Positions 13,245 through 54,841 are shown, numbered from the stretch's first letter. The stretch: 64,000 nucleotides of DNA from Alkalicella caledoniensis (GCF_014467015.1 NZ_CP058559.1:2976001-3040000); one strand, 5' to 3'. Made by a program: numbers and translations. The notes: generated by a model from the letters alone, not told the origin.

Positions 13245-13309
13245 CCGATTAATGGGATAACTTATAGTTGGTTAAGCACCAGTATTAAATTATAAATGGG
13301 GGAGTAAAA

Positions 13310-15331
13310 TTGCAAATAAGGAAAATAATAATTCGTAATTTTCAAGGGTTTGGTGAAGAGGATACTCATATTGAATTATCTGACTTGACCACCTTTATCG
13401 GGGCTAATAGTAGTGGTAAAACGGCAGTACTTCAAGCACTATCAAGAATTTTTGGATTGTATAACAGCCAACGTGAAATTAAAAAAACAGATTTTTATAC
13501 ACAAAATAATGAAAGAATTGAAGAGATTGATACCAAGGAATTAAAAATTGAGGCTATATTAGACTTTCCCGAACTTGTTAATAATGATTCTAGTGATACA
13601 GTTCCAACTTTTTTTAATCAAATGGTTATTGAAGAACAAGGAACAGTACCCTACTGTCGAATACGGCTGACGGCAGTATGGAAAAAAGGAGTAAGGCCTG
13701 AGGGAGACATAGAAACTAAATTACAGTTTATAGTAGTACCAGAGGGGGAAGAAGAGGATGATTCTAATTATGTAAACATGCAGAATCACCAACGTTCAAT
13801 GATTCAGTTTATATATGTACCAGCAGTTAGAGATCCCTTACATCAACTCAAACTAGCATCAAGTACTATTCTAGGAAGAATTTTGAGGTCAATTAAGTGG
13901 TCAGAAGATCTAAAAGAAAACCTTAAGAAACAAAAAGAAAACATTAGCCAATTAATTGATGCACAAGAAGGAATGGACTTAGTAGCCCAATGCCTAGATA
14001 GAAATTGGAAAGCTTATCATGGAGATGATAGGTACTCAAAAGCACTCCTTAATTTTGGAGGGAATGATTTAGATGATACATTAAGAAAACTAGAAGTGAT
14101 ATTTGAATCTATTGATGGTAATAATGTATTTTCAATGCAAGATTTAGGTGATGGTCTGAGATCGCTATTCTATCTTTCGTTAATTAACATGTCACTTGAA
14201 ATTGAAACCAAGGTAAGGAAAAATAACGACATAGTCAATGATAATCCATTCGAATTTATACCTTCACTATTAACAATCCTAGCTGTAGAAGAACCTGAAA
14301 ATCACATATCACCTCACTTATTAGGAAGGGTAGTTAAGAATTTAAGAGAGATATCTAAACAAGAAAATGCACAAGTTATAGTTACATCTCATTCTCCAAG
14401 TATTGTAAAAAGAGTAGACCCTGAAGATATCAGGCACATAAGGATATGTAAACAGAATTCATGTACTGTTGTAAGGCGTATTTATCTACCAGCAGAAGAA
14501 GTCGAAGCATATAAGTATGTAAAAGAGGCTGTGATAGCATATCCAGAATTGTATTTCGCCAAGCTGGTAATATTAGGTGAAGGAGACAGTGAGGAGCTTA
14601 TACTATCTAAATTGATAGAACTAAAAGGAGTTGAAATAGACAGTAGCGGTATTAGTATAGTGCCCCTAGGAGGAAGATTTGTTAATCACTTCTGGAAACT
14701 TTTAAAGCAGCTAGATATCCCGTTTATAACTTTGCTTGACTTGGATTTAGAGCGTAATACAGGTGGGTGGTCTAGGTTAAAGTACATTTTTCAACAATTA
14801 ATCGAAAATGGTGAGTCTATAGAAAATATATTAGGTGATGAAATAGACTTAGATCAAATACATCTAATGAACTATACCGAAAACAGCAGAGAAGAATTAG
14901 AAGTGTTAACTAAAGTTCTAGAAGAATTTAATGTGTTTTTTTCAGCTCCATTAGATATAGATTTTATTATGTTAGAAAAATACATAGATATTTATAAGCA
15001 AATAGTCCCTCCAAATGGAGGACCAAAAATTCCTGATAGAGTGAATGAGTATGATATATATCTTCAGAGAATCGAAAAAGATGTTAAAACCGTACTGAAA
15101 TCAGAAGATGCAGAAGGGATTACATATAGTGCTGAAGAAAAAGAGCTGATGATTTGGTATAAATATCACTTTCTTGGAAGGGGGAAACCAAGCACTCATT
15201 TGATGGCTCTATCGAAGATAGGGGAAGAATTAGCTCAGAGCTACCCTCTCGTGCTAGATAAAATTATTGAAAGTGTAAAATTTTTATTATCTAAACAATC
15301 TAATTTATCATCGGAGGAAATGGAGGACTAG
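13310..15331 (+). CDS. gajA: Gabija-type OLD-family ATP-dependent endonuclease GajA
   Basis: The 673-residue protein begins with the SMC/RecF-like ATPase half: Walker A GANSSGKT at residues 31-38, then SMQDLGDGLRSLFYL (signature-like) and AVEEPENHISPHL (Walker B) near 325-340. The C-terminal TOPRIM nuclease has LVILGEGDSEEL near 420-430 and TLLDLDLERNTGGW near 474-487, which supply the acidic metal ligands. In Gabija, GajA forms the nuclease core and GajB the helicase; ATP and nucleotide depletion by phage releases DNA nicking. The protein is about 100 residues longer than the reference Bacillus cereus GajA as I remember it. The TTG start was chosen because GGGGGAG lies about 7 bp upstream. 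It is separated by one base from gajB. A truncated gajA start related in sequence lies at 35703. Confidence 0.88.
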   Translation: MQIRKIIIRNFQGFGEEDTHIELSDLTTFIGANSSGKTAVLQALSRIFGLYNSQREIKKTDFYTQNNERIEEIDTKELKIEAILDFPELVNNDSSDTVPTFFNQMVIEEQGTVPYCRIRLTAVWKKGVRPEGDIETKLQFIVVPEGEEEDDSNYVNMQNHQRSMIQFIYVPAVRDPLHQLKLASSTILGRILRSIKWSEDLKENLKKQKENISQLIDAQEGMDLVAQCLDRNWKAYHGDDRYSKALLNFGGNDLDDTLRKLEVIFESIDGNNVFSMQDLGDGLRSLFYLSLINMSLEIETKVRKNNDIVNDNPFEFIPSLLTILAVEEPENHISPHLLGRVVKNLREISKQENAQVIVTSHSPSIVKRVDPEDIRHIRICKQNSCTVVRRIYLPAEEVEAYKYVKEAVIAYPELYFAKLVILGEGDSEELILSKLIELKGVEIDSSGISIVPLGGRFVNHFWKLLKQLDIPFITLLDLDLERNTGGWSRLKYIFQQLIENGESIENILGDEIDLDQIHLMNYTENSREELEVLTKVLEEFNVFFSAPLDIDFIMLEKYIDIYKQIVPPNGGPKIPDRVNEYDIYLQRIEKDVKTVLKSEDAEGITYSAEEKELMIWYKYHFLGRGKPSTHLMALSKIGEELAQSYPLVLDKIIESVKFLLSKQSNLSSEEMED

Positions 15332-17730: not shown

Positions 17731-18245
17731 GGGGGTCAGGACGTGCGGCAGAGCTTAGGTCGTACCATATAGCGGGTGGAATTCCCGTCGAGAAAGAACT
17801 AGCCATTCACTCGTAGCGAGTCTTGGAGGGCAGCGGGTAACCGTTGCTTATAAGCGTAGACAGTTAGGTAGTGGGCCGAAAGCCGTAAGGTTGAAGGGAT
17901 TGAGCTTCGAAAACCCGAATCAGAAGGGCTGATGTCATGTCCTGTACAGAAAGCAACATTTCTTTTCTCGAAATGGCAAGAGGAAAGGAACCTTCTCGGA
18001 GTCATTGACCTCGGCACGTTACACATTGATATGTTATGGCAACTCTGGAGGTCCTGCAGGTCTTTTCACTAAAAGTGAAGAGTATGGCGTACAAGCGATA
18101 CAAAGTGAGGAAACCAAATGCCTTGCAGAAAGTCGGATAACAGCGTAGTACCAATGAAATCGGGTAATGCTGATGGAGGAAAGGCTGTTACCTGTCATCG
18201 TTCTTCTTAGGGACACATTAACTACACACAGAGGTGGAATAATTA

Positions 18246-19564
18246 ATGGAAACAAAACTAATGAGAATAGCAGAATTAGCGAAATCTCAACCTAAGATGC
18301 AATTCACTGCTCTTGCACATTAATTGAATGAGGAGACACTTAAACAGTGCCACCATGAACTACCAAACAATAAAGCCGCAGGAGTAAACCGAACCACTAA
18401 GGAAGAGTATGAAGAACAGTTAAATGAAAACATTCGAAATCTAGTTAAGAGGCTCAAGCAGAAAAGCTACCATCCAAGTCCCGTAAGAAGGACTTACATT
18501 CCTAAAGCAGGTAGTAACAAGAAACGCCCTTTAGGAATACCGGAACACGAAGACAAGATAGTGCAGAGAGCTATTGCAAAGATTTTAAACGAACAAGATT
18601 TCTTGGATTCATCTTTTGGATTTCGTCCAAACCGTAATTGTCACGACGCCTTAAAGATTCTCAATGTCTACCTAGAAGGAAGAAAGATTAATTTCATAGT
18701 GGATGCCGATATTAAAGGGTTCTTTGATAACGTCAGCCATACATGGATGATGAAGTTTCTGAATCACCGAATCAATGATCTTAACTTTTTGAGAATCATT
18801 GAAAGATTCCTAAAAGGTGGGTACATGGAAGACGGAAAGACATATGTGACAGACTCCGGAACCCCCAGGGTGGATTGATTTCACCAATTATCGCGAATCT
18901 TTATCTTCACTATGTACTTGACTTATGGTTTGAGAAAATCATCAGGAAACACTGTAAAGGTCAAGCTTACATGGTTAGATATGCAGATGATTTTGTATGT
19001 TGCTTTCAGTTTGAAGAAGATGCACAATTATTTTACCGCGCATTAATCGAGAGATTAGAGAAATTTGATCTCGAGGTTGCAGAGGGTAAAACAAAGATTA
19101 TCCCTTTTGGAAGGTTTGCTAGTGAACGTTGTAAGGATGATGGGATGAAGAAGCCCGCGACATTCGATTTTCTAGGATTCACCCATTACTGTAGCAAAAG
19201 CCAGAAAGGTAATTTCCGTGTAAAGCGGAAAACCATTGCTAAGAAAATGCGTGCTAAAATCATACAGTGCAAAGAATGGCTGAAAATCAACAGATATAAA
19301 AGCATAACGGAGATAATGAAAAGCTTGAGTCGTTCGTTAAAAGGCTATTACAATTATTATTGCATAACGGACAACTCAATCACAGTAAATAACTTCATGG
19401 ATAAAGTAAGAAGTTTACTGTTCAAATGGATGAATCGAAGAAGCCAACGTAAATCTTTTAACTGGGATAAATTCATACTATTCGTGAGGAAATTCCCATT
19501 ACCTAAACCAAGTATGAAGGTGAGTATTTACGATTTAGGAAAAGAGATTAGTTACATTCTGTAA
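18246..19564 (+). pseudogene. ltrA: Group II intron reverse transcriptase/maturase (LtrA), nonsense plus frameshift
   Basis: The gene starts at the ATG after GAGGTGG, with METKLMRIAELAKSQP. A TAA at about 18322 replaces an expected leucine codon between FTALAH and LNEETLKQC. The second lesion is at about 18865, where DSGTP should continue QGGLISPIIANLYLH: one base is missing from the run ACCCCCAGG. Reconstructed, the protein has about 439 residues with RT domains (FGFRPNRNCHDAL, DADIKGFFDNVSH, YADDFVCC catalytic motif) and a maturase domain (SLKGYYNYYCI). The catalytic YADD is intact but the polypeptide is cut twice. Confidence 0.88.
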
Positions 19565-19577
19565 ATGGTGTTAGGAG

Positions 19578-19610
19578 GAGCCGTGTGCGTTAATTGCGCA
19601 AGCACGGTTC
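19578..19610 (+). ncRNA. Group II intron domain V
   Basis: GAGCCGTGTGCG pairs with CGCAAGCACGGTTC around a TTAATTG loop, giving the 33-nt catalytic hairpin of group II introns. Domain VI and the branch-point region follow up to 19661. Confidence 0.82.
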
Positions 19611-19726
19611 TGAGAGGGGGAAGAACTCAATCCGTTTAGGAAAGGTTCTTCTCTACTCGACTGCCATCATGCAATTTGTAACTTATTGTGGACATCACGA
19701 ACTCTCAAAAAATGGACAACCAAAAG

Positions 19727-19759
19727 CCCCATGAATTGATACAAAGTCAATTCATGGGG
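19727..19759 (+). terminator. Hairpin of the recurring hairpin/GCAGGATT unit (copy A)
   Basis: CCCCATGAATTGA and TCAATTCATGGGG form a perfect 13-bp stem around TACAAAG. A moderately T-rich stretch and then the GCAGGATT motif follow. It probably acts as a bidirectional terminator. Confidence 0.65.
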
Positions 19760-19772
19760 TTGTTATATTCCA

Positions 19773-19800
19773 GCAGGATTTCCATGCTTGGTTATTGAAT
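19773..19800 (+). repeat. GCAGGATT...TATTGAAT dispersed motif, copy 2
   Basis: GCAGGATTTCCATGC is followed by TTGGTTATTGAAT, 28 bp in total, 13 bp after a terminator-like hairpin. It is almost identical to the copies at 40205 and 41924 (reverse strand). Confidence 0.8.
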
Positions 19801-19839
19801 TATATAATATAATACTAACATACTTAGTAAGTGTTTTTA

Positions 19840-20002
19840 ATGGAATTGGCTGGATTCTAAGGAGAAGCGTAATAAGGTTCTCAATGTTATAAACTTATAT
19901 TTGAAATGGGTTGTTCTGAACCTACATCGTCGAAATCAAAGAATATCTTATCGAATGTTCTGTATTAACCCAAATGTAAAGCTAGTGAATTATGGTTTAT
20001 AA
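19840..20002 (+). pseudogene. DUF6361-like gene start, decayed (copy A)
   Basis: A leader shared with the copies at 35531 and 40271 (ACTTAGTAAGTGTTTTT) precedes a degenerate start. One frame then reads DSKEKRNKVLNVINLYLKWV, matching IDFSREQRNKMLNVIKFL of the best-preserved fragment at 35531. Those fragments resemble the N-terminus of DUF6361 proteins (KxGWIDFSxExRxKVLxVLDLL). The family match rests on memory of that motif. No complete gene is present. Confidence 0.5.
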
Positions 20003-20031
20003 AGAAAATTTGAGTGCTGAGGTGATGACCA

Positions 20032-20767
20032 ATGAATTACAGCTCCATAGATATAGATGGTTTTAAAGGAAAATGGATAGCTGTTTATATAAGTGATGAT
20101 GGTTTTGATGTGGGGCAGTTTGACACTATAGCTGATATATGTGAAAGGTACCCTAACTGTGATAGCTACCTTATGGATATGCCCATAGGACTTGTGGAAA
20201 GTAGAAATGAGCTGCGCCCTGATTTGTTGGTTAAGAAGGAACTTGGTAGAAAGGGGTCAAGTATTTTCCAGGTCCCTTGTAGGCAGGCAGTTTATGCTGA
20301 GGATAAGGTTAGGGCTAGGGAGTCAAATATACAAGTGCTAGGCAAGAGTTTGTCGGAGCAAACTTTAGGGATAGTTAAGGGGATCAGGCAAGTGGATGAG
20401 TTCTTATTTACTAACCCAGCTTGGAAGAATAGGTTGCTGGAAAGTCACCCGGAGTTTTGCCTTGCAAAGCTAAACGGAGGACAGCCAGTTTTGGAACACA
20501 AGGCCCCCTTGAGGGACAAGAAATAAGGATGGAGATATTGAGGAGATACTACCCCCAGGCAGATGGTGTTTTAGATAAGTATCGGGCATATTTTCCAAGA
20601 AGAAAAAAACTCGATGATGTAATAGACGCTTTATGTTTAGCGGTTATGGGGAAGATGAGTTCAGAAATGGTATAAAGACAATACCAGAACAGCCTATGAA
20701 GGATAGTAGAGGGTTGCTCATGCAGATTGTTTATGCAAGTTGTGAACACTCTAGGGGGAAGGAAAAA
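20032..20767 (+). pseudogene. DUF429 family protein, two frameshifts (copy A)
   Basis: The ATG at 20032 follows GAGGTGATGACC and opens a DUF429 (predicted RNase H-fold nuclease) protein: IDGFKGKWIAVYI, DMPIGLV and RQAVYAEDKVRARE. Compared with copy B at 40467, one base is lost near 20505-20515 (CCCCCTTGAGGG), ending the first frame at 20526. A second base is lost near 20662 (GAAATGG versus GAAAATGG). The C-terminal part, through IPEQPMKDSRGLLMQIVYA, lies in the same frame as the following acetyltransferase. The function of DUF429 proteins is unproven. This copy is probably inactive. Confidence 0.75.
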
Positions 20768-21274
20768 GTGTTGATAAATACTAATATAGACGGATTCAAA
20801 CTAAGATTTGCTACAGAAGATGATATTCGATTGATTCTAGAATTTATTAGGGAACTAGCTGAGTATGAGAAGTTGTTACATGAGGTTGTGGCAACTGAGG
20901 AAGTTTTAATGGACTCTTTGTTTAAGAGAAAAGTGGCAGAGGTTGTTATAGGTGAATATGATGGTAAGCCTGTAGCATTTGCTTTGTTCTTCCATAATTT
21001 CTCTACTTTCTTAGGTAGACCTGGTATATATTTAGAGGACTTATATGTGAAGCCTGGGATGAGGGGGAAGGGGATAGGTAAGATTATGTTGTCTTTCCTC
21101 TCTAACCTTGCATTGGAGCGTAATTGTGGAAGGTTAGAATGGTGGTGCCTTGATTGGAACAAGTCCTCCATTGAGTTTTATAAACAGATGGGAGCAGTTC
21201 CAATGGATGAGTGGACTACTTTTAGAGTTCACGATGATGCACTTAAGGGTTTAGCAGCAAATTTTAGAGAGTAA
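20768..21274 (+). CDS. GNAT family N-acetyltransferase (copy A, intact)
   Basis: The protein has about 168 residues from GTG 20768, or one codon fewer from TTG 20771; AGGGGGAAGG a few bases upstream supports either. It shows the GNAT fold: FKLRFATEDDIRLILEFI at the start, YLEDLYVKPGMRGKGIGKIML (strand 4 and the acetyl-CoA pyrophosphate loop, RGKGIG) near residue 90-110, and LEWWCLDWNKSSIEFYKQMGA near 120-140. It resembles diamine or amino-acid acetyltransferases. The open frame continues upstream into the tail of DUF429 with no stop between, so a DUF429-GNAT fusion is possible. Copy B (41210) has lost one base in this gene. Confidence 0.85.
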   Translation: MLINTNIDGFKLRFATEDDIRLILEFIRELAEYEKLLHEVVATEEVLMDSLFKRKVAEVVIGEYDGKPVAFALFFHNFSTFLGRPGIYLEDLYVKPGMRGKGIGKIMLSFLSNLALERNCGRLEWWCLDWNKSSIEFYKQMGAVPMDEWTTFRVHDDALKGLAANFRE

Positions 21275-21333
21275 TACTTTTATTATTATGTAAAGGTGTT
21301 GCACCAAATATATTACAGAAACGTGGGGCTAAT

Positions 21334-22320
21334 ATGTTAATAGAGCAAACCATAGATGAGTTTTTGCGTAAGAAAAGCAATTACATTGGGTACGAGATAG
21401 ATACAGTACAAAATCTATTACAAAGCGATAAAAAATATAGTCTTCTATACATTTGTGGACTTGGAGAAATTGAAGGTGATTCATTAAAATATAGTATAAA
21501 AACATCGGTAAAGGCTTATTCAAGCATTAAAGACAGTGCAATTGATATTTATAAGAAGTACCTAGGATTCTTAAGTAAAAAATTTGGCATATATGTGGAT
21601 GTGGATTTTCCGCCAATACCTATATCCATTAGCTTTGAGCGGATCATGTACATCGCCAAGTACCTGCAAAACCCGGAGCATGAGGTCAAACACTTAGAAG
21701 ATATATTATGGGTCAGCCACAGAACTGTTTTAGATGATATTGCAAAACTTAGGGGGAATACGGATGATCCCCTTCAGGTATGTGGTAAGAAGTTTATTAT
21801 TGAAGATATGGAACGTAGAAGAGGAAGAGTTACCATGGCTTCAACAGCTCATCCGATCTTTCTTACAGGTAATTTGACACAAGTGATTGTAACTTTAAAA
21901 GGCCTAAAAAGCATGAGTCAAGATTCTGCTTATAGGAGCTATGCCATGGAGATGGCAAAATCTATATGGACTCAGCTTTCTGATTATGCAAAAGATAGAA
22001 TTATTCTTGTTGTAACTGAGATGCTGCCAGATGAAGTTGAGTGGTATTTGAGCTTAGGTGACAAGGATGATAATAGCTTTTATAGTGAATATATGTGTAG
22101 CAACACAGAAGGTGCAGGCTGTGTTATTGATTGCTTGAAAAATCGTAAAGAGTGCTATATAGAGTATCAAAGGGAAGATAATTCCGTTGTTTTCTATGAG
22201 GATTGCAAGGTAATTGATTATGATGATACATCATTTACTGTTATACATAAGGGGGAGAAAGTAAGGTTAATAAGTGACAATATCCTCCGAAGTAGTTATA
22301 CAATTGAAGAATTAGTTTAA
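21334..22320 (+). CDS. HTH/WYL-like transcriptional regulator (copy A, intact)
   Basis: The 328-residue protein has an N-terminal helical region and a helix-turn-helix segment near 105-150 (FERIMYIAKYLQNP...LEDILWVSHRTVLDDIAKLRG). A central domain follows, and a C-terminal region (about 258-328: CVIDCLKNRKECYIEYQ..., IDYDDTSFTVIHKGEKVRL) has the strand pattern of WYL-type ligand domains. It probably senses a small molecule or nucleic acid and regulates the block. The C-terminal WYL assignment is by pattern only. It is followed by a strong inverted repeat that covers the ribosome-binding site of the next gene. Copy B (42192) has a nonsense codon, so this is the only intact copy. Confidence 0.68.
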   Translation: MLIEQTIDEFLRKKSNYIGYEIDTVQNLLQSDKKYSLLYICGLGEIEGDSLKYSIKTSVKAYSSIKDSAIDIYKKYLGFLSKKFGIYVDVDFPPIPISISFERIMYIAKYLQNPEHEVKHLEDILWVSHRTVLDDIAKLRGNTDDPLQVCGKKFIIEDMERRRGRVTMASTAHPIFLTGNLTQVIVTLKGLKSMSQDSAYRSYAMEMAKSIWTQLSDYAKDRIILVVTEMLPDEVEWYLSLGDKDDNSFYSEYMCSNTEGAGCVIDCLKNRKECYIEYQREDNSVVFYEDCKVIDYDDTSFTVIHKGEKVRLISDNILRSSYTIEELV

Positions 22321-22331
22321 AACTTGAAGCC

Positions 22332-22396
22332 CAGCCCTCATATTTATTTAGTTCGGAGTAATTTATAATGAACTTAACAAATAAATATGGGGGCTG
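22332..22396 (+). promoter_or_regulatory. Long inverted repeat covering the ribosome-binding site (copy A)
   Basis: CAGCCCTCATATTTATTT (from 22332) pairs with AAATAAATATGGGGGCTG (to 22396), and the stem is extended by AGTTC/GAACTT. The right arm contains the GGGGG ribosome-binding site 7-8 bp before the ATG at 22403, so the stem would hide it. The same structure, with a different loop, precedes the homologous gene in copy B (43191-43255). Confidence 0.72.
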
Positions 22397-22402
22397 ATTA
22401 TT

Positions 22403-24156
22403 ATGAAAAACACTTTTTACAGACCAGAGGAAATCAATGTAGAGGAGTTTGATTCAATAGTATCAAAGCTTAATAAGGATCTCATGGACATTTCAAGAGG
22501 CTATGTTAATGAATATGATTTAAAAAGATATGTGGAAAAGCTAGTTGAGGATCAAAAGGATTTCGAAGGAAACGATAAGATAGGGTTTTGGGGGCTTTGG
22601 GATCCAAATAAGCTCCCAACGGATGCTCGAGTTGAGTACTTCTACATGCCATCTTATATTGCCACCGGGGTACTTGTTAGCTGTAAGCTAGATTATCCTC
22701 ACATTGCTAGTGAGGTAACGGGATTTGAAGCTGCTTTAGAAAAAGGGTTGCTGGGTTCAACCACTAGAGGTTTTCAAGGGCATGGTTATGATAACCTAGA
22801 TGGTTTAGTTAAGGCTTTAAATGTATTTATCACTGCTAAAACTCATATCTTTATTGAGAAGTTTCCAGAGATATGTAAAGAGTTCACAAAGCTTTTTAAA
22901 GATTCACTGGAATTTTGTGAAAACAGTCTACAAACAGGTAATACAAAAGGGGATTGGGGGGAAGATTACTCGGTTCAATATAAATGTATTCTTCAAAGCA
23001 TTTATCCCCACAGATATTTGAACTAGAGGGAAAACTTCAAATGGATAAAGAAGAGGTAAATATATTTGTCTACGGTACTCTGATGAAAAATAACCGCAAG
23101 GGAATGACCTATTTAGATGATGCTAGATACTTAGGTGAAGCTACATTAAAGGGTTATGACCTCTATGACTTAGGATGCTTTCCAGGGATTGTAGAAGGAG
23201 ATGATATGGTAAAGGGAGAGCTATATGCTATTTCTGTGGATAGATTACCTGAGATTGACCGTTATGAGGGGGAAGGGTCTTTATATAGAAGAAAGATGGT
23301 AGAAGTTTTTAGCAACGAGAACAATGCTCCAGTGGAGAGTTATGTTTATGTGTATAATAAAGCTGTCTTGGGTAAGTTGAAGATAGAAAATAGCTATCAT
23401 CCATGGTATCAGGGTATAGTAGAAGAGATTAAAGGTGATAATCTTGTTTGGTATGCCACCTATGGGTCAAATGTTAACAAGGAAAGGTTTATGAAATATA
23501 TAAATGGTTGTTGCGATACTACACCTCCACAAAAGGAAAGACCTATAATCATAGATCATCCAATATACTTTGCCAATAGAAGTAGCACATGGGAAGATAG
23601 AGGAGTTGCATTTCTAGACTTACAAAAGGAAGGCAAAACCTATGGAAAGATGTACTTGATAACAAAGGAACAATTGAGAGAGATTCAAAGACAAGAGGGT
23701 CCAGGGTGGTATGATGCGGTAGGGGATTTGGGTAATAAGGATGGAATACCTGTGAAGACACTGACACATTCTTCAAGGTTTGTAGAGGAGAATATACCAT
23801 GCAGGGCATACTTTGATATTATTAAACAGGGTATTAGTACTACTTACCCCACATTAAAAGATGATGAAATTGATGCTTACTTACTAGGTCACTGCCTGGA
23901 TGGGGATATGGTTGAGGTACTGCGATACCTTAGGAAACAACAGCATGGAGTTAAAATCTCTAAGATATGTACCGACTTAAATAAAAATGAGAAGATGGTC
24001 ATAGATTCACTTTCGGGGTTACGTGACCTAGGTTTAGTAGTACAAGATGGTAGGAACGTAAGGGAAGGAGTTACTGCAAACTCACCTGAGGCTGTATATT
24101 ATACTGTAAAGGGAATTAGGGAAGCTATAGATAAGGTTGTGGTAAGTTTTGAGTAA
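22403..24156 (+). pseudogene. Four-domain protein with two GGCT-like domains, split by a frameshift (copy A)
   Basis: This is homologous over its full length to the intact 584-residue protein at 43262. One base is lost at about 23020-23026 (TTGAACTAG where copy B has TTAAAACTAG), so the first frame ends after 207 codons. The second part resumes with MDKEEVNIFVYGTLMKNNRKG and runs to 24156. The first half is an unknown domain; the second holds two gamma-glutamylcyclotransferase-like domains and a winged-helix end. Translation of the second half could restart at ATG 23041, so a partial function is conceivable. Confidence 0.82.
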
Positions 24157-24695: not shown

Positions 24696-25742
24696 ATGAT
24701 AAGTGGAATTAAACCAAAACATAAAATAACCCCAGTGCGTCTTCATCTAGAGATAAAAGGTGAATATCTGACAAATTATCAAAAAAGGATGCTTAAAAGA
24801 TATGGAGAGTCCTCAACGCGTGAATCCATAACCAGGGATATTCTTATACCGTCGGATATGCCATTACATAACCTTCATTATGCAATTCAAAAATTGTTTG
24901 GATGGCAGAACTCTCATCTACGGAGTTTTTATTTGCCAGAAGAAAGGTATCAAGAGTTGACAGGTGGAACTGTTAAGGGGTGGTCTGATTTAGTAGGCGT
25001 ATTATTCCAACCTCCATCAGAAGCAGAACATGATATTTTTTGGGATGATGATTACCAGAGGGGTAACATCAATACATGGCTTAAGAAAAAGTACGCAGGG
25101 CCATATTTCTATGGAGGCATACTAGAACATCCAGACGCTGCAAGACGAGACATGAAAAGACTATTAGATAGGTTCAATATGGTTGAAGTCATTGAATCCT
25201 TTAGTGACTATTGGGAACGTTCAAAAGGAGATGACGATGAAGAAATGAGAGTTTTACGAAGGGCACCGCTAATTGAATTAACCCTTGAAGAAATGAATTC
25301 ATCCATTATGATTGAAGGAGGGACAGAGAGCTTATTGGAGCGTTTAGAAGTTGATAAAATAATAGCAGCACAAGATGAGGTTATGGATTCTAAGAATCTG
25401 TTCCCTGTAACAAAGGAACTAATTTATAATTATGACTTTGGTGATAATTGGATTATAAAAATAACTAAGTACAAAGATTGTGAAGATTTGATAAGAGATA
25501 ATCTTATTGACCGAGATGAGCTTGAAGAGGCAGAAGATACTGTAGTAAATAAGCATAAGCCAGTTTGTCTTAACAAAGATGGAATATCCGTCCTTGATGA
25601 TGTTGGAGGATTGAGTGGATTTGCTGACTTATTAGGAGTTATTTATGAAGGTGAAGATAAAGAAGAGAAGGCTAATGCTCGTGCTTGGGCACAAAGCCTT
25701 GGTTGGAGTGCTAAAAAGATGTCTAATAAAATGATGATATAG
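24696..25742 (+). CDS. Plasmid pRiA4b ORF-3-like family protein
   Basis: The 348-residue protein starts at the ATG after AAAGGAG. It has the hallmarks of the PRiA4_ORF3 family: VRLHLEIKG...RDILIPSDMPLHNLHYAIQKLFGWQNSHLRSFYL near residues 12-90 and NYDFGDNWIIKITKYKDC near 246-265. A long acidic insert lies between. Members occur on plasmids and in mobile or defence regions and their function is not established. It is followed by a small gene and a broken HTH gene, then the Wadjet operon. Confidence 0.8.
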   Translation: MISGIKPKHKITPVRLHLEIKGEYLTNYQKRMLKRYGESSTRESITRDILIPSDMPLHNLHYAIQKLFGWQNSHLRSFYLPEERYQELTGGTVKGWSDLVGVLFQPPSEAEHDIFWDDDYQRGNINTWLKKKYAGPYFYGGILEHPDAARRDMKRLLDRFNMVEVIESFSDYWERSKGDDDEEMRVLRRAPLIELTLEEMNSSIMIEGGTESLLERLEVDKIIAAQDEVMDSKNLFPVTKELIYNYDFGDNWIIKITKYKDCEDLIRDNLIDRDELEEAEDTVVNKHKPVCLNKDGISVLDDVGGLSGFADLLGVIYEGEDKEEKANARAWAQSLGWSAKKMSNKMMI

Positions 25743-35367: not shown

Positions 35368-35425
35368 CCCCAATGTAATATTGAGTTCTTAGTAAAATAA
35401 ATTACAGCATAGGTATTAATAAAGA

Positions 35426-35467
35426 AGCCCAATGAGTTGACACAAAGTCAATTCACTGGGCTTTTTT
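35426..35467 (+). terminator. Hairpin of the recurring hairpin/GCAGGATT unit
   Basis: AGCCCAATGAGTTGAC and GTCAATTCACTGGGCT form a long stem (few mismatches) around ACAAA and are followed by TTTTTT. The inner TTGACACAAAGTCAA is shared with the hairpins at 40159 and 45102. Confidence 0.78.
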
Positions 35468-35470
35468 CCT

Positions 35471-35497
35471 GCAGATTTCCATCCCTTGCTATTGAAT
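35471..35497 (+). repeat. GCAGGATT...TATTGAAT dispersed motif, copy 3
   Basis: GCAGATTTCCATCC followed by CTTGCTATTGAAT. It directly follows the T tract of the preceding terminator and lies 34 bp before a DUF6361-like gene start. Confidence 0.72.
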
Positions 35498-35530
35498 ATA
35501 CAATACTAACTGACTAAGGAAGTGTTCTTG

Positions 35531-35623
35531 ATGAAATTTGGATGGATTGATTTTTCTAGGGAGCAGCGTAATAAGATGCTTAATGTTATAAAATTTTTGT
35601 CTGAGCCCTGGGCCTGTGGATAG
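35531..35623 (+). pseudogene. DUF6361-like gene start, best-preserved fragment
   Basis: The ATG opens MKFGWIDFSREQRNKMLNV and IKFLSEPWACG before a TAG. The start closely resembles that of DUF6361 proteins, in which the next residues after LLSEPG would continue for several hundred more. Only 30 codons remain. Decayed versions of the same start and leader are at 19840, 40271 and 42000. Confidence 0.6.
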
Positions 35624-35702
35624 GTCGGTCAAGTACTAGATTTTTTTTCTAGGCACTGTAAAAGTGATAAAAATGAGACTTCATATTTAAGCAAAGAGTA
35701 AA

Positions 35703-35802
35703 ATGCAGATAAGAAAAGTAATTATACGTAATTTCCAAGGATTTAGCGAAGAGGATACTCATATTGACTTATCTAACTTACCCACTCTTATTGGGGCTAA
35801 TA
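35703..35802 (+). pseudogene. gajA 5' fragment (second Gabija remnant)
   Basis: The ATG opens MQIRKVIIRNFQGFSEEDTH and IDLSNLPTLIGAN, then the match stops just before the Walker A lysine. The intact gajA at 13310 reads MQIRKIIIRNFQGFGEEDTH and IELSDLTTFIGAN over the same stretch, and the DNA is similarly close. This is the truncated start of a second, related OLD-family nuclease gene. It does not derive from a recent copy, since several silent and coding changes separate the two. Confidence 0.85.
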
Positions 35803-40080: not shown

Positions 40081-40108
40081 GGGGTTCAGGACTGCAATCG
40101 TGCAATTT
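40081..40108 (+). repeat. GGGGTCAGGACTGCAAT repeat, empty intron site
   Basis: GGGGTTCAGGACTGCAATCG followed by TGCAATTT. It is the counterpart of the intron-split copy, with CAGGAC and TGCAATC joined, so it proves the intron ends. The homology to copy A continues into AACTTATAGTGGAC. Confidence 0.8.
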
Positions 40109-40158
40109 CTAACTTATAGTGGACCTCCATGAGCTCACAAAAAATAGGAATATAATAG

Positions 40159-40191
40159 CCTCATGAATTGACACAAAGTCAATTCATGGGG
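40159..40191 (+). terminator. Hairpin of the recurring hairpin/GCAGGATT unit (copy B)
   Basis: CCTCATGAATTGAC and GTCAATTCATGGGG pair around ACAAA. A T-rich tail and the GCAGGATT motif follow, as in copy A. Confidence 0.65.
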
Positions 40192-40204
40192 TTATTATAT
40201 TCCA

Positions 40205-40232
40205 GCAGGATTTCCCTGCTTTGTTATTGAAT
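40205..40232 (+). repeat. GCAGGATT...TATTGAAT dispersed motif, copy 4
   Basis: GCAGGATTTCCCTGC followed by TTTGTTATTGAAT, 28 bp, as in copy A. Confidence 0.8.
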
Positions 40233-40270
40233 ATATAATATAATAATAACTTACTAAGTAAGTGTTTTTG

Positions 40271-40440
40271 ATGAAATTTGGCTGGATGATTCTATGGAGA
40301 AGCGTAATAAGGTTCTCAATGTTATAAATTTTTATTTGAAATGGGTTGTTCTGAACCTATTTTCGCCGCAACCCAAGAGTATCTTAGAATGTTCTGTATT
40401 AACCCAAATGTAAAGCATAATCAATTATGAGTTCATAAGA
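40271..40440 (+). pseudogene. DUF6361-like gene start, decayed (copy B)
   Basis: The ATG opens MKFGW, then a frameshift; another frame reads DSMEKRNKVLNVINFYLKWVV. It is nearly the same as the fragment at 19840, so the decay predates the block duplication. Confidence 0.52.
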
Positions 40441-40466
40441 AAACTTAAGTACTGAGGTGATGACCA

Positions 40467-41203
40467 ATGAATTACAGCTGGATAGGTATAGATGGTTTTA
40501 AAGGAAAGTGGATAGCTGTTTATATAAGTGATGATAGTTTTGATGTGAGACAGTTTGATACTATAGCTGATATATGTGAAAGATATCCTAACTGTGATAG
40601 CTACCTTATTGATATGCCCATAGGGCTTGTGAAAAATAGAAATGAGCTGCGTCCTGATTTGCTGGTTAAGAAGGAACTTGGTAAGAGGGGGTCAAGTATC
40701 TTCCAGGTCCCTTGTAGGCAGGCAGTTTATGCTGATGATAAAGTTCGAGCTAGGGAGTCAAATATCGAAGTGCTAGGAAAGAGTTTGTCGGAGCAAACTT
40801 TAGGAATAGTTAAGGGGATCAGGCAAGTGGATGAGTTCTTACTTAGTCATCCAGTTTGGAAAAATAGGCTGCTGGAGAGTCATCCGGAGTTTTGTTTTGC
40901 AAAGCTAAACGGAGGACAGCCAGTTTTGGAACACAAGGCCTCCATTGAAGGGCAAGAAATAAGGATGGAGATTTTGAGGAGATACTACCCCCAGGCAGAT
41001 GGTGTTTTGGAAAAGTATAAGGCATACTTTCCAAGAAGAAAGAGGCTGGATGATGTAATAGATGCTTTGTGTTGGCAGTGATGGGTAAGATGATTGCAGA
41101 AAATGGTATGAAGACAATACCAGAGCTGCCTATGAAGGATAGTAGAGGGTTGTTCATGCAGATTGTTTATGCAAGTGGTGAACATTCTAGGGGGAAGGAA
41201 AAA
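40467..41203 (+). pseudogene. DUF429 family protein, C-terminal frameshift (copy B)
   Basis: The ATG after GAGGTGATGACC opens an uninterrupted frame of 204 codons to 41081: IGIDGFKGKWIAVYIS-like start, DMPIGLV, RQAVYADDKVRARE, ESHPEFCFAKLNGG and RRKRLDDVIDALC. One base is missing at about 41073 (TTGTGTTGGCAG where copy A has TTATGTTTAGCGG). About 35 final residues (LAVMGKMIAENG, TIPELPMKDSRGLFMQIVYA) are therefore in another frame. The main domain is intact, so this copy might keep activity. DUF429 proteins are predicted RNase H-fold nucleases of unknown function. Confidence 0.72.
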
Positions 41204-41209
41204 GTGTTA

Positions 41210-41709
41210 ATGGATACTGGTATAGACGGATTCAAACTAAGATTTGCTAAGGAAGAGGATGTCCCACTGATTCTTGAATTTATTAGGGAGTTAGCTGAGT
41301 ATGAAAAATTATTGCATGAGGTTGTCGCAACTGAAGAGGTTTTAATGGACTCACTGTTTAAGAGAAAAGTGGCAGAGGTAGTTATAGGTGAATATGATGA
41401 TAAGCCTGTAGCATTTGCTTTGTTCTTCCATAATTTCTCTACTTTCTTAGGTAGACCTGGTATATATTTAGAAGACTTATATGTAAAGCCTGAGATGAGG
41501 GGAAAGGGGTAGGTAAGATTATGTTGGCTTTTCTTGCTAATTTGGCTTTGGAACGTGATTGTGGAAGGTTAGAATGGTGGTGCCTTGATTGGAATGAGTC
41601 TTCCATTGAGTTTTATAAGCAGATGGGAGCAGTTCCCATGGATGAATGGACTACTTTTAGGGTTCATGATGAAGCCCTTAAGGATTTGGCAGGGAAATTT
41701 AGAGATTAA
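41210..41709 (+). pseudogene. GNAT acetyltransferase, frameshifted in the acetyl-CoA loop (copy B)
   Basis: The ATG at 41210 follows AGGGGGAAGG. The frame runs to VKPEMRGKG and then stops: GGAAAGGGGTAGG lacks the A present in copy A's GGGATAGG. The rest (MLAFLANLALERDCGRLEWW to 41709) continues in another frame. The lesion hits the RGKGIG loop that binds acetyl-CoA, so this copy is inactive unless slippage restores the frame. Confidence 0.82.
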
Positions 41710-41729
41710 AGGGTTCTCATTAGATGCTT

Positions 41730-41770
41730 AGGCCCGTGATTTGACTTTGCGTCAAATCATAGGCCTTTTT
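41730..41770 (+). terminator. Strong terminator inside copy B
   Basis: AGGCC, then TGATTTGAC and GTCAAATCA around TTTGC, then GGCC and TTTTT. It lies in the part of copy B that has no match in copy A and would cut the WYL gene off from upstream transcription. Confidence 0.78.
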
Positions 41771-41810
41771 CGATACTGGCTCTTAAACTCTGAAAAAATA
41801 CAGAGAATTC

Positions 41811-41836
41811 GGGGTCAGGACTGCAATCATGCAATT
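41811..41836 (+). repeat. GGGGTCAGGACTGCAAT repeat, copy in the extra segment
   Basis: GGGGTCAGGACTGCAATCAT followed by GCAATT, the closest match to the consensus of the four copies in the window. Confidence 0.78.
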
Positions 41837-41923
41837 CTCAGCCTAGTTAAGTGATTTTTAGTCACATCGTGGGGAGTTTTCTGTGTTGTTATAAGTTATG
41901 TGAGAATGATAGTTCACTGTGTA

Positions 41924-41951
41924 ATTCAATAACCAAACATGGAAATCCTGC
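41924..41951 (-). repeat. GCAGGATT...TATTGAAT dispersed motif, copy 5 (inverted)
   Basis: On the minus strand it reads GCAGGATTTCCATG followed by TTTGGTTATTGAAT. It is the only inverted copy. Confidence 0.75.
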
Positions 41952-41999
41952 TGAAAACCCCCCCCATCAATAGTATCAACTTACTAGGGAAGTGCTTTG

Positions 42000-42060
42000 A
42001 TGGTGCCTGGATTGACTTTTATAAGGGAGCAGCAGTAAGGTGCTTATATAGTAGTAGCAT
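42000..42060 (+). pseudogene. DUF6361-like gene start, strongly decayed
   Basis: After a leader resembling the other copies (ACTTACTAGGGAAGTGCTTTG), TGGATTGACTTTTATAAGG reads WIDFYK, then the match fades. It is the fourth and weakest remnant of this gene start. Confidence 0.42.
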
Positions 42061-42191
42061 TTTAGACACCTTAAGCCGGGGGAGCATATAGAGGATGTAA
42101 GTCCTAGCAAACGTTATTTCTTAAGTCAAAGACAGATTGAGAAGTGATGAATAGTATGAATGTGACGAAATAAAAAATCGGAGGTTCAGAT

Positions 42192-43178
42192 ATGTTACTT
42201 GAGGAGACCATTGAGGAGTTTTTGAGTTCAAAGAAAAAATACATGGGTTATGATGAAAAAATGGTAAGAAATTTATTACAAGTAAGTAAAAAGTATAGCC
42301 TTTTAGAGATATGTGGCTATGGAGAGATTTAAGTCGATTCTTTGAAAGTAAGTATTAAAGAATCGGTAAAGGCTTATTCCAGTAGCAAGGATAATGCTAT
42401 TGATATTTACAGGAAGTACCTTGGATTCTTAAGTAAAGAATATGGTATACATGTGGAGATAGATTTTCCGCCTATACCTGTGTCCATTAGTTTTGAAAGG
42501 ATAATGTACATAGCTAAATATCTGCAGAACCCGGATCATAAGGTGAAAGACTTAGCAGATATCTTATGGGTAAGTGAGAGGACTGTGTTGGACGATATAG
42601 CAAAGCTAAGGGGGAATACAGATGACCCCCTTCAGGTATGTGGTAAGAAGTTTATTATTGAAGATATGGAGCGTAGAAGAGGAAGAGTTACCATGGCTTC
42701 AACAGCTCATCCGATCTTTCTTACAGGTAATTTGACACAAGTGATTGTAACTTTAAAAGGCCTAAAAAGCATGAGTCAAGACTCTGCTTATAGGAGCTAT
42801 GCCATTGAGATGGCAAAGTCCATCTGGACTCAACTTTCTGACTATGCAAAGGAAAGAATTATTTATGTTACAACTGAAATGCTGCCTGATGAAGTTGAGT
42901 GGTATTTAAGTCTTGGTGATAAAGATGAGAATAGCTTTTATAGTGAATATATGTGTAGCAATACAGAAGGTGCAGGTTGTGTTATTGACTGCTTAAAAAA
43001 CCGTAAATCATGCTGTATTGAGTATCAAGAAGATGATAACACAGTAGTTTTCTATGAAGACTGTATGGTACGTGATTATGATGGAAAAACTTTTAAAGTT
43101 ATCTATAAGGGAGAGAAAATGGAACTGTTAAGTGACAATGTTCTTCGCAGTGGTTATACAATAGAAGAGTTAATCTAA
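42192..43178 (+). pseudogene. HTH/WYL-like regulator with a nonsense codon (copy B)
   Basis: The ATG at 42192 (GGAGGTTCAGAT upstream) opens MLLEETIEEFLSSKKKYMGY, homologous to the intact regulator at 21334. A TAA at 42330-42332 replaces the glutamate codon of copy A (GEIEGDSL versus GEI*VDSL). The rest of the frame (278 codons from 42342), with the HTH and the WYL-like part, is intact. A restart product lacking about 50 residues is possible but no good ribosome-binding site precedes the next ATG. Confidence 0.78.
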
Positions 43179-43190
43179 AAACTTGAAGCT

Positions 43191-43255
43191 CAGCCCTCAT
43201 ATTTATTTAGTTCAGATTCTTTTACAATGAACTTAACAAATAAATATGGGGGCTG
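43191..43255 (+). promoter_or_regulatory. Long inverted repeat covering the ribosome-binding site (copy B)
   Basis: CAGCCCTCATATTTATTT pairs with AAATAAATATGGGGGCTG, extended by AGTTC/GAACTT. The stem is unchanged from copy A while the loop has changed (CAGATTCTTTTACAAT here). Conservation of the stem only suggests a functional RNA structure. Confidence 0.75.
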
Positions 43256-43261
43256 ATTATT

Positions 43262-45016
43262 ATGAAAAACACTTTTTACAGACCAGAGGAAATTAACGTG
43301 GAGGAGTTTGAGTATATAGTATCAAAGCTTAATAATGACCTAGTTAATATTTCCAGAGGCTTTGTTAATGAATTTGATTTAAGGAGATACGTACAAAAGC
43401 TAGTTGAGGATCAGAAGGATTTAGATCGAAATCCAAAGATGGGCTTTTGGGGGCTTTGGGATCCACAAGACCTACCAAGCGATGCTCGAGTTGATTTTTT
43501 CTATATGCCAACTTATATAGCAACTGGGATCCTGATAAGCTGCAAACTCAATTTTCCTCACATTGCAGCTGAGGTAGAAGGATTTGATGTGGCTTTAGAA
43601 AAAGGTTTGCTGGCTTCAACAGGCAGAGGTTTTCAGGGACACGGTCATGATAATCTAGATGGCTTGGTTAAAGCTCTTAATGTCTTTATCACAGCTAAAG
43701 TTCATATCTACCTTGAGAAATTTCCAGATACATGCAAAGAGTTTACAAAGCTGTTCAATGAGTCAATAGCTTTTTGTGAAAATAGCTTATTAACTGGTAA
43801 CACAAAAGGAGATTGGGGAGAAGATTATTCAGCTCAGTATAGATGTATCCTTCAAAGTCTATATCCTCACAAATATTTAAAACTAGAACAAAGAATTGAA
43901 GTGGATAAAGAAGAAGTGAATGTATTTGTGTATGGAACACTAATGAAAAGTAACCGAAATGGAATGACTTATTTAAAAGACGCAAAGTGTTTAGGTGAAG
44001 CTACATTAGAAGGTTATGAGCTTTATGACTTAGGTAGTTTCCCAGGCATAGTTCAAGGGGATGGCAAGGTAAAGGGAGAGGTATATACGATCTCAGTTGA
44101 TAAGTTACCGGAGCTTGATAGATATGAGGGGGAAGGTTCTTTATATAAGAGAAATAAGGTAGAAGTTTATAGTGAGGAAAGTAAAGAGAAAGTCAACTGT
44201 TATGTTTATGTCTATAACAGGTCAACTACAGGTAGACCTAAGGTAGAATACAAATACCAACCTTGGCATGAGGGAGTAGTAGCTAAGATGAACGATGATA
44301 ATCTTGTTTGGTATGCAACCTATGGATCCAATGTAAATAAAGAGAGGTTCATGAAATATATTGAAGGCTGTAGTGATACTACACCTCCCAAAAAAGAAAG
44401 ACCTATAATTATAGATCATGAGCTATATTTTGCTAACAGAAGTGGTAGATGGGATAGCAGAGGTGTGGCTTTCCTAGACTTAGGTAAAGAAGGCAAAACC
44501 TATGGAAAGATGTACTTGATCACTGAGGAACAATTTAAAGAGATTCAGCAACAAGAGGGCCCAACCTGGTATGATGGTGTAGGGAGCTTAGGGTTTAAAG
44601 ATGGTATTGCAGTAAAAACACTGACACACTCTACACGATTTGTAGATGAAAATATTCCTTGTAAAGCATACTTTAACACAATAAAACAGGGTATACGTAG
44701 TACATACCCTACATTAAGTGAAGAAGAAATTGATGCATACTTGCTAGGGCGTTGTCTAGATAGGAACACAGTTGAGGTATTGCAATATATTAGAAAGCAA
44801 CAGCATGGTGTTAGAATCTCTAAGATCTGTAACCACTTAAATAAGAATGACAAGATGGTCGTAGATTCGCTTTCGGGATTAAGAGAATTGGGCTTAGTAG
44901 TACAAGACAGTAGGAGCGTAAGGGAAGGAGTTGCACCAAACTCAGCTGAAGCTGTTTACTATACTGTAAGAAGTAGGAGAGCAGCTATAGATATGGTGGT
45001 AGGAAGGTCTAAATAG
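43262..45016 (+). CDS. Four-domain protein: unknown N-domain, two GGCT-like domains, winged helix (copy B, intact)
   Basis: The 584-residue protein starts at the ATG after GGGGGCTGATTATT. Residues 1-210 form a helical domain of unknown type (FWGLWDPQDLPSDARV, GRGFQGHGHDNLDGLVKALNVF). Residues about 218-330 begin VNVFVYGTLMKSNRNGMTYL and resemble gamma-glutamylcyclotransferase/AIG2 folds. A second such domain (about 345-490) begins LVWYATYGSNVNKERFMKYI. Both keep the YGTL/YGSN phosphate-loop-like motif. Residues about 500-584 look like a winged helix (VEVLQYIRKQQHGVRISKICNHLNKNDKMVVDSLSGLRELGLV). The fusion suggests a small-molecule-processing enzyme linked to DNA or partner binding. The combined function is unknown. 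Copy A of this gene is frameshifted. Confidence 0.78.
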   Translation: MKNTFYRPEEINVEEFEYIVSKLNNDLVNISRGFVNEFDLRRYVQKLVEDQKDLDRNPKMGFWGLWDPQDLPSDARVDFFYMPTYIATGILISCKLNFPHIAAEVEGFDVALEKGLLASTGRGFQGHGHDNLDGLVKALNVFITAKVHIYLEKFPDTCKEFTKLFNESIAFCENSLLTGNTKGDWGEDYSAQYRCILQSLYPHKYLKLEQRIEVDKEEVNVFVYGTLMKSNRNGMTYLKDAKCLGEATLEGYELYDLGSFPGIVQGDGKVKGEVYTISVDKLPELDRYEGEGSLYKRNKVEVYSEESKEKVNCYVYVYNRSTTGRPKVEYKYQPWHEGVVAKMNDDNLVWYATYGSNVNKERFMKYIEGCSDTTPPKKERPIIIDHELYFANRSGRWDSRGVAFLDLGKEGKTYGKMYLITEEQFKEIQQQEGPTWYDGVGSLGFKDGIAVKTLTHSTRFVDENIPCKAYFNTIKQGIRSTYPTLSEEEIDAYLLGRCLDRNTVEVLQYIRKQQHGVRISKICNHLNKNDKMVVDSLSGLRELGLVVQDSRSVREGVAPNSAEAVYYTVRSRRAAIDMVVGRSK

Positions 45017-51119: not shown

Positions 51120-51738
51120 TAGTATTCCTCCTAATTTAAAATTTTTTATACAGATTTATTCTGCAAAAACTATCAAAACCTTTCTAAAGTGTATGTCTTG
51201 TAGGGTAATTTTTAGCTAACATAGTTTAATAAATTAAAAATGTGAAGGGATTATGAAGAGTTTATGGATCTATTTGAATGGGTATTCTGAGTTAGATTTA
51301 GGTACAGGGAATAGATAATAGAGCCGTGGAAGAGGTATTATGCTATTCGTTTGATTGAGCATGGAGATTTTTAGTTAGAAATATTAACAAAAAATTAAAC
51401 TTTAGCTATCCAACATTGCTAACTAGAAAAATGTGGTATAGAATTAGTTATAATCATACTGGAAGGTGTGGGAAGATGATAGTTACTACTTGCTAATTCA
51501 CTGAAGTGAATATTGAAGAAGTGTAAAGGCCAGGGCATGAAGGTTTTAATAAAAATTTGGCTGTAAGAAGGCTTCTTCTTGCAGTTTTTTATATCTAAAA
51601 AATATATACTTGCTATTAGATGTTCAATGAAGCCCCTAAAGGAGATAATAACAAATGTCCCTTTAGATTTGAAGCTAGCAAGCAATACTGAGGATAACTT
51701 AAAAGAACAGAGGATTATACCGAAGGGAGAAGAGATTT
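51120..51738. other. Intergenic stretch with decayed sequence and a promoter-peptide-terminator unit
   Basis: 51120-51400 shows only short frames (for example RYYAIRLIEHGDF near 51335) that look like gene debris. 51416-51590 carries the duplicated leader unit described separately. The rest leads to the ribosome-binding site of the EEP gene. Confidence 0.6.
51416..51590 (+). ncRNA. Promoter / six-codon peptide / terminator unit, copy 1 (candidate small RNA or attenuator)
   Basis: A promoter (TTGCTA 51416-51421, 17 bp, TAGAAT 51439-51444) is followed by ATG ATA GTT ACT ACT TGC TAA (51476-51496, MIVTTC) behind GGAAGGTGTGGGAAG. Next are a small hairpin (TTCACTGAAGTGAA, 51497-51510) and a terminator (CTGTAAGAAG/CTTCTTGCAG plus T run, 51561-51590). 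The same order, with the same conserved stretches, occurs at 59525-59785. Confidence 0.5.
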
Positions 51739-54275: not shown

Positions 54276-54841
54276 AATACTCCCTCCGATGTTAGAAAAT
54301 TATTTATATTGTGCTATTTTTCACATAACTTAGTAAAAAAAGAATTATACGTTTTAAGGAGTATAATTTTTCCTGAACAAATTCACTCACATCAATATTT
54401 TCGTCAGTTATAAATCCATCCCACTGACTCTTTAAGATGTATAAGGGTAACAATTTTTTTATCTAGATAAGTATTTACTGATATTATATAATGTGTTTAA
54501 TATTATTACAATAGGTTGTCATGCATTTTTAACGCTATACTACAATAGTTTTTGCCCCTGTGTCATTTGTGTTATAGCAACTGTTATAGTGTAAGGGGAG
54601 GACGTTAGTCAGTATACATTACATCCCCATGAAGTTATCTAGAGTCACTCATGGGGATGTTTTTCCCAGCAGGATTTCCTTATTTGTTATTGAATTATAC
54701 ATATAGTACTACTTTACTATGTATCACAAAGGGGGAGTTATATGATGGGGTTGGCAATCGTGCATAATATAAGAAGGTGCGTAACTATCCACGTTAAAGC
54801 CCTTCTTTTGGATTTTTTATATAATTTCAGGAGGTTTTCTA
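54276..54841. other. Intergenic stretch with a hairpin/GCAGGATT unit and a second hairpin
   Basis: It contains a terminator (ACATCCCCATGA with TCATGGGGATGT, 54621-54660, then TTTT). Next are the GCAGGATT motif at 54669, the phrase GGGGTTGGCAATCGTGCA (a possible distant relative of the GGGGTCAGGACTGCAAT repeat), and a hairpin AAGAAGG/CCTTCTT (54771-54807) before the NUDIX gene. No gene was seen. Confidence 0.65.
54669..54695 (+). repeat. GCAGGATT...TATTGAAT dispersed motif, copy 6
   Basis: GCAGGATTTCCTTATT followed by TGTTATTGAAT. It comes 8 bp after the TGGGGATGT arm of a terminator. Confidence 0.78.

Follow-up and report, generated by a model that had tools for sequence, protein, structure and literature searches.

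We found that the gene of a WYL-like regulator and the gene of a protein with two cyclotransferase-like (GGCT) domains probably constitute, as judged from sequence comparison, an undescribed conserved two-gene operon, and that the spacer between them is predicted to fold into a hairpin hiding the ribosome-binding site of the second gene. The window, that is, the whole stretch of DNA analyzed, comprises 64,000 nt of Alkalicella caledoniensis (NZ_CP058559.1:2976001-3040000). Within it, the studied interval (20032-24156) had been proposed, in a sequence-only reading, to hold a single system of DUF429, GNAT, regulator, and double-GGCT genes; of this proposal, the regulator and the double-GGCT/winged-helix protein stand as a conserved pair, whereas DUF429 and GNAT fall into a separate unit.

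The studied interval is one of two diverged copies

Self-comparison of the window paired 19659-24137 with 40090-44997 as diverged duplicates, the studied interval being copy A of this duplication and 40090-45016 copy B. The features of both copies are the following.

20032..20665, + strand: copy A DUF429 gene (RNase H-like), PF04250 E 2.6e-35, frameshifts near 20508 and 20664 (frames compared with copy B)
20633..21274, + strand: copy A open frame with the DUF429 tail and an intact SSAT/thialysine-type GNAT, PF00583 4.3e-18
21334..22320, + strand: copy A regulator, 328 aa, intact, HTH and C-terminal Sm/SH3-like barrel (WYL-like)
22332..22396, + strand: copy A hairpin in the 82-nt spacer, 18-bp stem (22332-22349 / 22379-22396), z -5.6
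22403..24156, + strand: copy A helical-domain/GGCT/GGCT/winged-helix gene, split by a 1-nt indel near 23019
40467..41110, + strand: copy B DUF429 gene, PF04250 E 6.9e-46, 204 codons open, frame lost near 41071
41069..41709, + strand: copy B DUF429 tail and GNAT, frame lost near 41509 (copy comparison)
42192..43178, + strand: copy B regulator, in-frame TAA at 42332 (locus L068 of the regulator search, one TAA)
43190..43256, + strand: copy B hairpin, 19-bp stem, same position over the Shine-Dalgarno, z -7.2
43262..45016, + strand: copy B intact 584-aa protein with helical N-domain, GGCT 1, GGCT 2, and winged helix

The genes are broken differently in the two copies, by single-base indels and one stop codon, and part of the frameshifts could be assembly errors. 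In copy A, the regulator and the GNAT are intact and the GGCT gene is split into two ORFs (22403-23026 and 22984-24156). In copy B, the 584-aa GGCT protein is intact, the GNAT is broken, and the regulator has an early TAA, after which the remaining ORF (42342-43178) retains the HTH and the C-terminal domain; DUF429 is damaged in both copies. A 584-residue protein had been placed inside the studied interval, but the intact one is the paralogue at 43262-45016, and as a description of the copy A gene this length was rejected, given the broken frame. We read the two copies as diverged paralogues, each partly decayed, so that the genome would be left with an intact regulator in A and an intact enzyme in B.

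DNA identity between the copies is 89% over the DUF429/GNAT part and 80.5% over the regulator/GGCT part. Synonymous divergence (dS) of DUF429 and of most of GNAT is ~0.32-0.41, rising to 0.64 in the short 3' part of GNAT, and that of the regulator and the GGCT gene is ~0.83-1.13, so that the two units appear to have had separate histories or to have been unequally homogenized. In addition, ~420 nt of extra sequence lies between the two units in copy B only, and a 110-nt tract that is identical within the otherwise diverged regulator genes (21814-21923 and 42672-42781) points to local gene conversion between them. The dN/dS ratio between copies is ~0.10-0.14 in each unit (~0.13-0.14 for the regulator and the GGCT enzyme), which shows that both units were under purifying selection during most of the divergence. 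This selection, together with the one intact regulator and the one intact enzyme left and with intact relatives of the 584-aa protein at 39-54% identity, makes it very improbable that the two copies are decaying debris, i.e., functionless pseudogenes, even though each copy has frameshifts or a stop and decayed relatives occur in G309, in G240, and at the Clostridium locus L054.

A group II intron whose reverse transcriptase ORF is split in two (17779-19661) ends where the copy A homology starts. An intergenic repeat of ~90-180 nt, 76-80% identical and with no match in Rfam, lies beside island modules at 19724-19893, 35425-35598, 40157-40333, and 54625-54711, and a second intergenic repeat pair, 82-88% identical, is found at 51381-51606 and 59491-59802.

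DUF429 and GNAT appear to be an independent unit

Both the DUF429 and the GNAT genes claimed for the interval were recovered by their Pfam matches, the former in spite of its frameshifts, and copy B is a full match to the DUF429 (PF04250) family. The GNAT part occupies ~20774-21274 of the copy A open frame; its PDB matches are thialysine acetyltransferase (1e-40) and diamine acetyltransferases, and by sequence it is of the SSAT/thialysine acetyltransferase type, from which it differs by standing in frame with a DUF429 tail. The claim that tail and GNAT share a frame was borne out as well, with 20633-21274 open and the same junction open in copy B. At the sequence level, the in-frame junction is real in both copies and the fused protein only putative. 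DUF429 proteins are RNase H-like, mostly single-domain, of conserved context, and unlikely to be mobile (PMC3985635); in contrast to these usual members, the tail here continues into GNAT, while the nearest relative (L071) ends right after the tail.

A survey of 399 genomes sampled from the phylum gave DUF429 relatives in eight others, none of which has a GNAT, regulator, or GGCT gene within the ±1.5 kb examined. The regulator/GGCT pair, for its part, recurs elsewhere without DUF429 and GNAT, and the four genes together were found nowhere outside this window in the 399-genome survey. The four-gene system was rejected on this context survey and on the unequal divergence of the copies. The grouping of all four genes twice in this window speaks for a four-gene defense system; nevertheless, the absence of any such association in other genomes, the different synonymous divergence of the two units, the extra sequence separating them in copy B, and the conserved, hardly mobile context of the DUF429 family (PMC3985635) leave it scarcely credible. 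We infer that DUF429 and GNAT would be an independent unit that was duplicated alongside the pair.

The regulator/GGCT pair recurs in other Bacillota

Several other Bacillota lineages carry the pair too, with the regulator gene followed by a GGCT-type gene in constant order and strand and with a spacer of ~75-92 nt. Order and strand are kept in the Desulfosporosinus pair (L039/L053) and in L040, L051, and L049, and the regulator is damaged in L046 and L054. When the 399 genomes were searched with the regulator, four other genomes gave a match of useful length, in all four cases directly upstream of an N-domain gene; the 584-aa protein found a full-length relative (46%) in Desulfosporosinus acididurans (G015). 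Shorter architectures occur too, namely, a 485-aa relative without winged helix in G370 (L040) and short forms (L046-L049) that have the same N-domain and a single GGCT domain. Three more loci came from scanning a genome collection: a 54% relative in a Clostridiaceae MAG that the contig end truncates (L051), a Blautia MAG gene with the N-domain alone (L052), and the decayed Clostridium copy (L054). N-domain profile scans of further genome groups returned the known loci and a remnant in G240.

No regulator homologues were found in the plasmids or phages searched, no relative of the 584-aa protein was found in viral contigs, and phage records gave only YtfP-like partial matches to it. On an Azospirillum plasmid (L009, 2599-5622), the N-domain gene and the GGCT gene are separate, divergent neighbors, which also links the two domains. 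These Azospirillum genes lie near an ADP-ribosylglycohydrolase gene; a literature search for AIG2 with ADP-ribose and macro-domain operons returned nothing.

The regulator has a predicted WYL-like fold

The proposed WYL-like regulator was upheld as an HTH gene at 21334-22320 whose predicted fold may be WYL-like, but not by domain profile, since six members of the regulator family gave no match to the WYL Pfam domain at E up to 1. Weak matches of the family to HTH_11 and HTH_PafC were obtained. The regulator model, of moderate confidence, presents an HTH and then a C-terminal five-stranded Sm/Hfq-like barrel, whose fold matches are weak (none below E 0.001), with Hfq/Sm the best and BrxR and CapW lower; the predicted barrel is consistent with WYL identity and is not proof of it. 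In the WYL regulators BrxR, CapW, and PafC, an HTH is followed by a Sm-like barrel, an arrangement that the model predicts here as well, BrxR and CapW being among the weak fold matches and HTH_PafC the weak sequence match just mentioned. The regulator described here departs from them in three respects: it is without a WYL Pfam match, it has a long helical N-terminal part ahead of the HTH, and it is partnered with a GGCT protein.

The spacer hairpin is predicted to bury the Shine-Dalgarno of the GGCT gene

In both copies, the stop codon of the regulator lies 12 nt ahead of the hairpin, and the two copies have the same stem arms but differ in part of the loop. The 3' arm in copy A holds the Shine-Dalgarno (SD) of the GGCT gene, with an SD pairing probability of 1.00. 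Of the 8 loci that have a regulator or its remnant upstream (L054, whose regulator is a remnant only, included), 7 reach a probability of at least 0.95, compared with 6 of 31 operon-type controls reaching at least 0.94; the three loci that lack a regulator give 0.63, 0.26, and 0.50. For the seven SD-burying loci, 0 to 15 of 300 upstream shuffles were equally good. Analogous hairpins with differing stems bury the SD in L051, L053, L049, L046, and L054; L040 is the exception, showing a terminator-like hairpin after the regulator instead of strong SD sequestration. Hairpin z-scores, besides those listed for copies A and B, are -3.75 in L049 and -3.3 in L040, and hairpin energies are unremarkable by z-score in L051, L053, and L054. 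The signal of a covariation count over A, B, and L051 was only weak, as 57 of 500 shuffles scored equally well.

Because the stem leaves little space for a separate promoter, the two genes are probably transcribed together, with the GGCT gene under the control of the regulator gene. The hairpin might still be a DNA operator, yet its stem sequence varies among loci and the SD stays buried. A terminator was considered as well and rejected, there being no T-run after the stem, which ends just before the start codon.

For a toxin-antitoxin role, in which the GGCT protein would be toxic and the regulator would neutralize it, the predicted SD sequestration of the GGCT gene is no more than an indirect hint. 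One could picture an undescribed addiction-type or defense operon in which the Sm-like-domain regulator would control the double-cyclotransferase effector via both DNA and the ribosome-site hairpin, possibly by binding the hairpin RNA itself, and infection would lead the effector to modify a gamma-glutamyl metabolite; we hold this to be rather unlikely.

The 584-aa protein couples two GGCT domains to a helical domain and a winged helix

A cyclotransferase-like and winged-helix protein had been claimed for the interval, and the copy A protein indeed gave a GGACT match (1.6e-29) and a weak winged-helix match; for the 584-aa protein, the GGACT match reaches E 5.7e-33 (114.5 bits, against a cut-off of 22.8). 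Its domains are the N-domain (1 to ~204), GGCT 1 (~218-340), GGCT 2 (~346-495), and the winged helix (~499-570). Structure prediction of the N-domain, suggested in the sequence-only reading, gave an all-helical domain, the confidence being good for most of residues 13-52 and 76-200. The N-domain carries an invariant GHG motif; it has no Pfam match of note and no convincing match to PDB sequences, nor is one evident among the best 50 fold matches.

GGCT 1 matches solved GGCT structures by both fold and sequence (1XHS 1.6e-14) and retains the YGTL and EG..LY motifs of the GGACT/AIG2-type cyclotransferases (PF06094; YtfP 1XHS, GGCT 3CRY, GGACT 1VKB). GGCT 2, in which the model has low confidence, was recognized by its YGSN and QEG motifs and not by fold, and is weakly homologous to plasmid proteins annotated "histone deacetylase." The winged helix resembles MarR types by fold match. 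E289, in the DRxEGxxxLY region, is invariant in the alignment of relatives and is presumably the catalytic glutamate, by analogy with GGACT; the Glu of "YEGEGSLY" and that of "QEG" are unchanged across three relatives of full or nearly full length. Whereas 1XHS, 3CRY, and 1VKB are small single-domain proteins, here the GGCT domain shares one chain with a new helical domain, a second GGCT-like domain, and a winged helix, and the protein is paired with a regulator. Bacillus YkqA (2QIK) has two GGCT-type stretches per chain and a weak sequence match to both, but at 285 aa it has no room for the helical N-domain and the winged helix.

The operon may serve stress or phage defense

In the window, copy A is flanked by Gabija and Wadjet, and an MkoC-like (Mokosh) gene precedes copy B. 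In other genomes, BrxL (BREX) is found upstream of L051, Wadjet (Jet) genes upstream and a restriction-type helicase downstream of L052, and MkoC-like and SspB genes near L040. Decayed copies or fragments in L041 and L043 have AEP-TOTE primases nearby, and a relative of GGCT 2 (L044) has Mrr and type I restriction genes in its vicinity. The long form recurs near defense genes, but not every relative is in an island, and housekeeping settings also occur: the Desulfosporosinus pair (L039/L053) is outside an island, with arsenic-resistance-like genes and a RecD-like helicase around it, and for the short single-GGCT forms (L046-L049) the neighborhood is mostly ordinary. PADLOC gave no profile match for 21334-22317 (regulator) or 22403-23023 (N-domain part), and 23041-24153 matched CARF/CasR models only, over the HTH part; none of the papers searched mentions both gamma-glutamylcyclotransferase and anti-phage. 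The defense neighbors of the long form in several unrelated genomes are suggestive, not decisive, because BrxR-type WYL regulators, like the regulator here, are located in defense islands, co-localizing with defense systems in about half of cases (PMC9122601). From this context, a defense function of the pair is plausible.

We tentatively favor a regulator/GGCT operon with hairpin gating that most likely acts in a stress or phage-defense response in islands. The regulator would hold the operon silent until a ligand is sensed; on transcription, ribosomes ending the regulator, or another factor, would open the hairpin, and the enzyme would thus be produced only alongside its regulator. The enzyme may then split a gamma-glutamyl-amine-type compound, releasing 5-oxoproline, and the winged helix may take it to DNA or control transcription.

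GGCT families are metabolic enzymes, and in a competing explanation the pair is a metabolic or salvage operon, the regulator sensing and the enzyme degrading gamma-glutamyl compounds, with islands as mere transfer hot spots. The relatives of the short form near cysteine/methionine and iron-sulfur-type genes, with the same N-domain, and the Desulfosporosinus copy fit this explanation. However, the long form stands beside BrxL, JetABCD, MkoC-like, SspB, and TOTE genes in unrelated genomes, and tight (predicted) translational gating and frequent decay would be unusual in a simple catabolic enzyme; we consider it unlikely, although worth serious attention. More doubtful is a regulatory pair in which both proteins bind DNA and control the neighboring defense genes, the GGCT domains being sensors rather than effectors. 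The HTH of the regulator, the MarR-like winged helix of its partner, and the co-localization of WYL regulators with defense systems (PMC9122601) agree with such a role, but the pair is kept where the winged helix is missing (L040 and the short forms), and the key Glu is conserved in both GGCT domains.

If the hairpin-gated stress or defense operon is the correct reading, a regulator/cyclotransferase operon recurring in defense islands would extend bacterial immunity by a new chemistry. The conserved hairpin leads to a testable claim, namely, that the second gene is dangerous or has to be expressed only together with its regulator.

Two further observations concern the surroundings of these genes in the window. 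A PRiA4 ORF3-like protein is encoded near copy A (24696-25742), and it has a weak relative (L041, 7424-8575) beside the decayed copy of G309. Finally, the 5' end of gajA (35696-35802) is 84% identical to the intergenic stretch 13302-13409, which is perhaps a gajA remnant.
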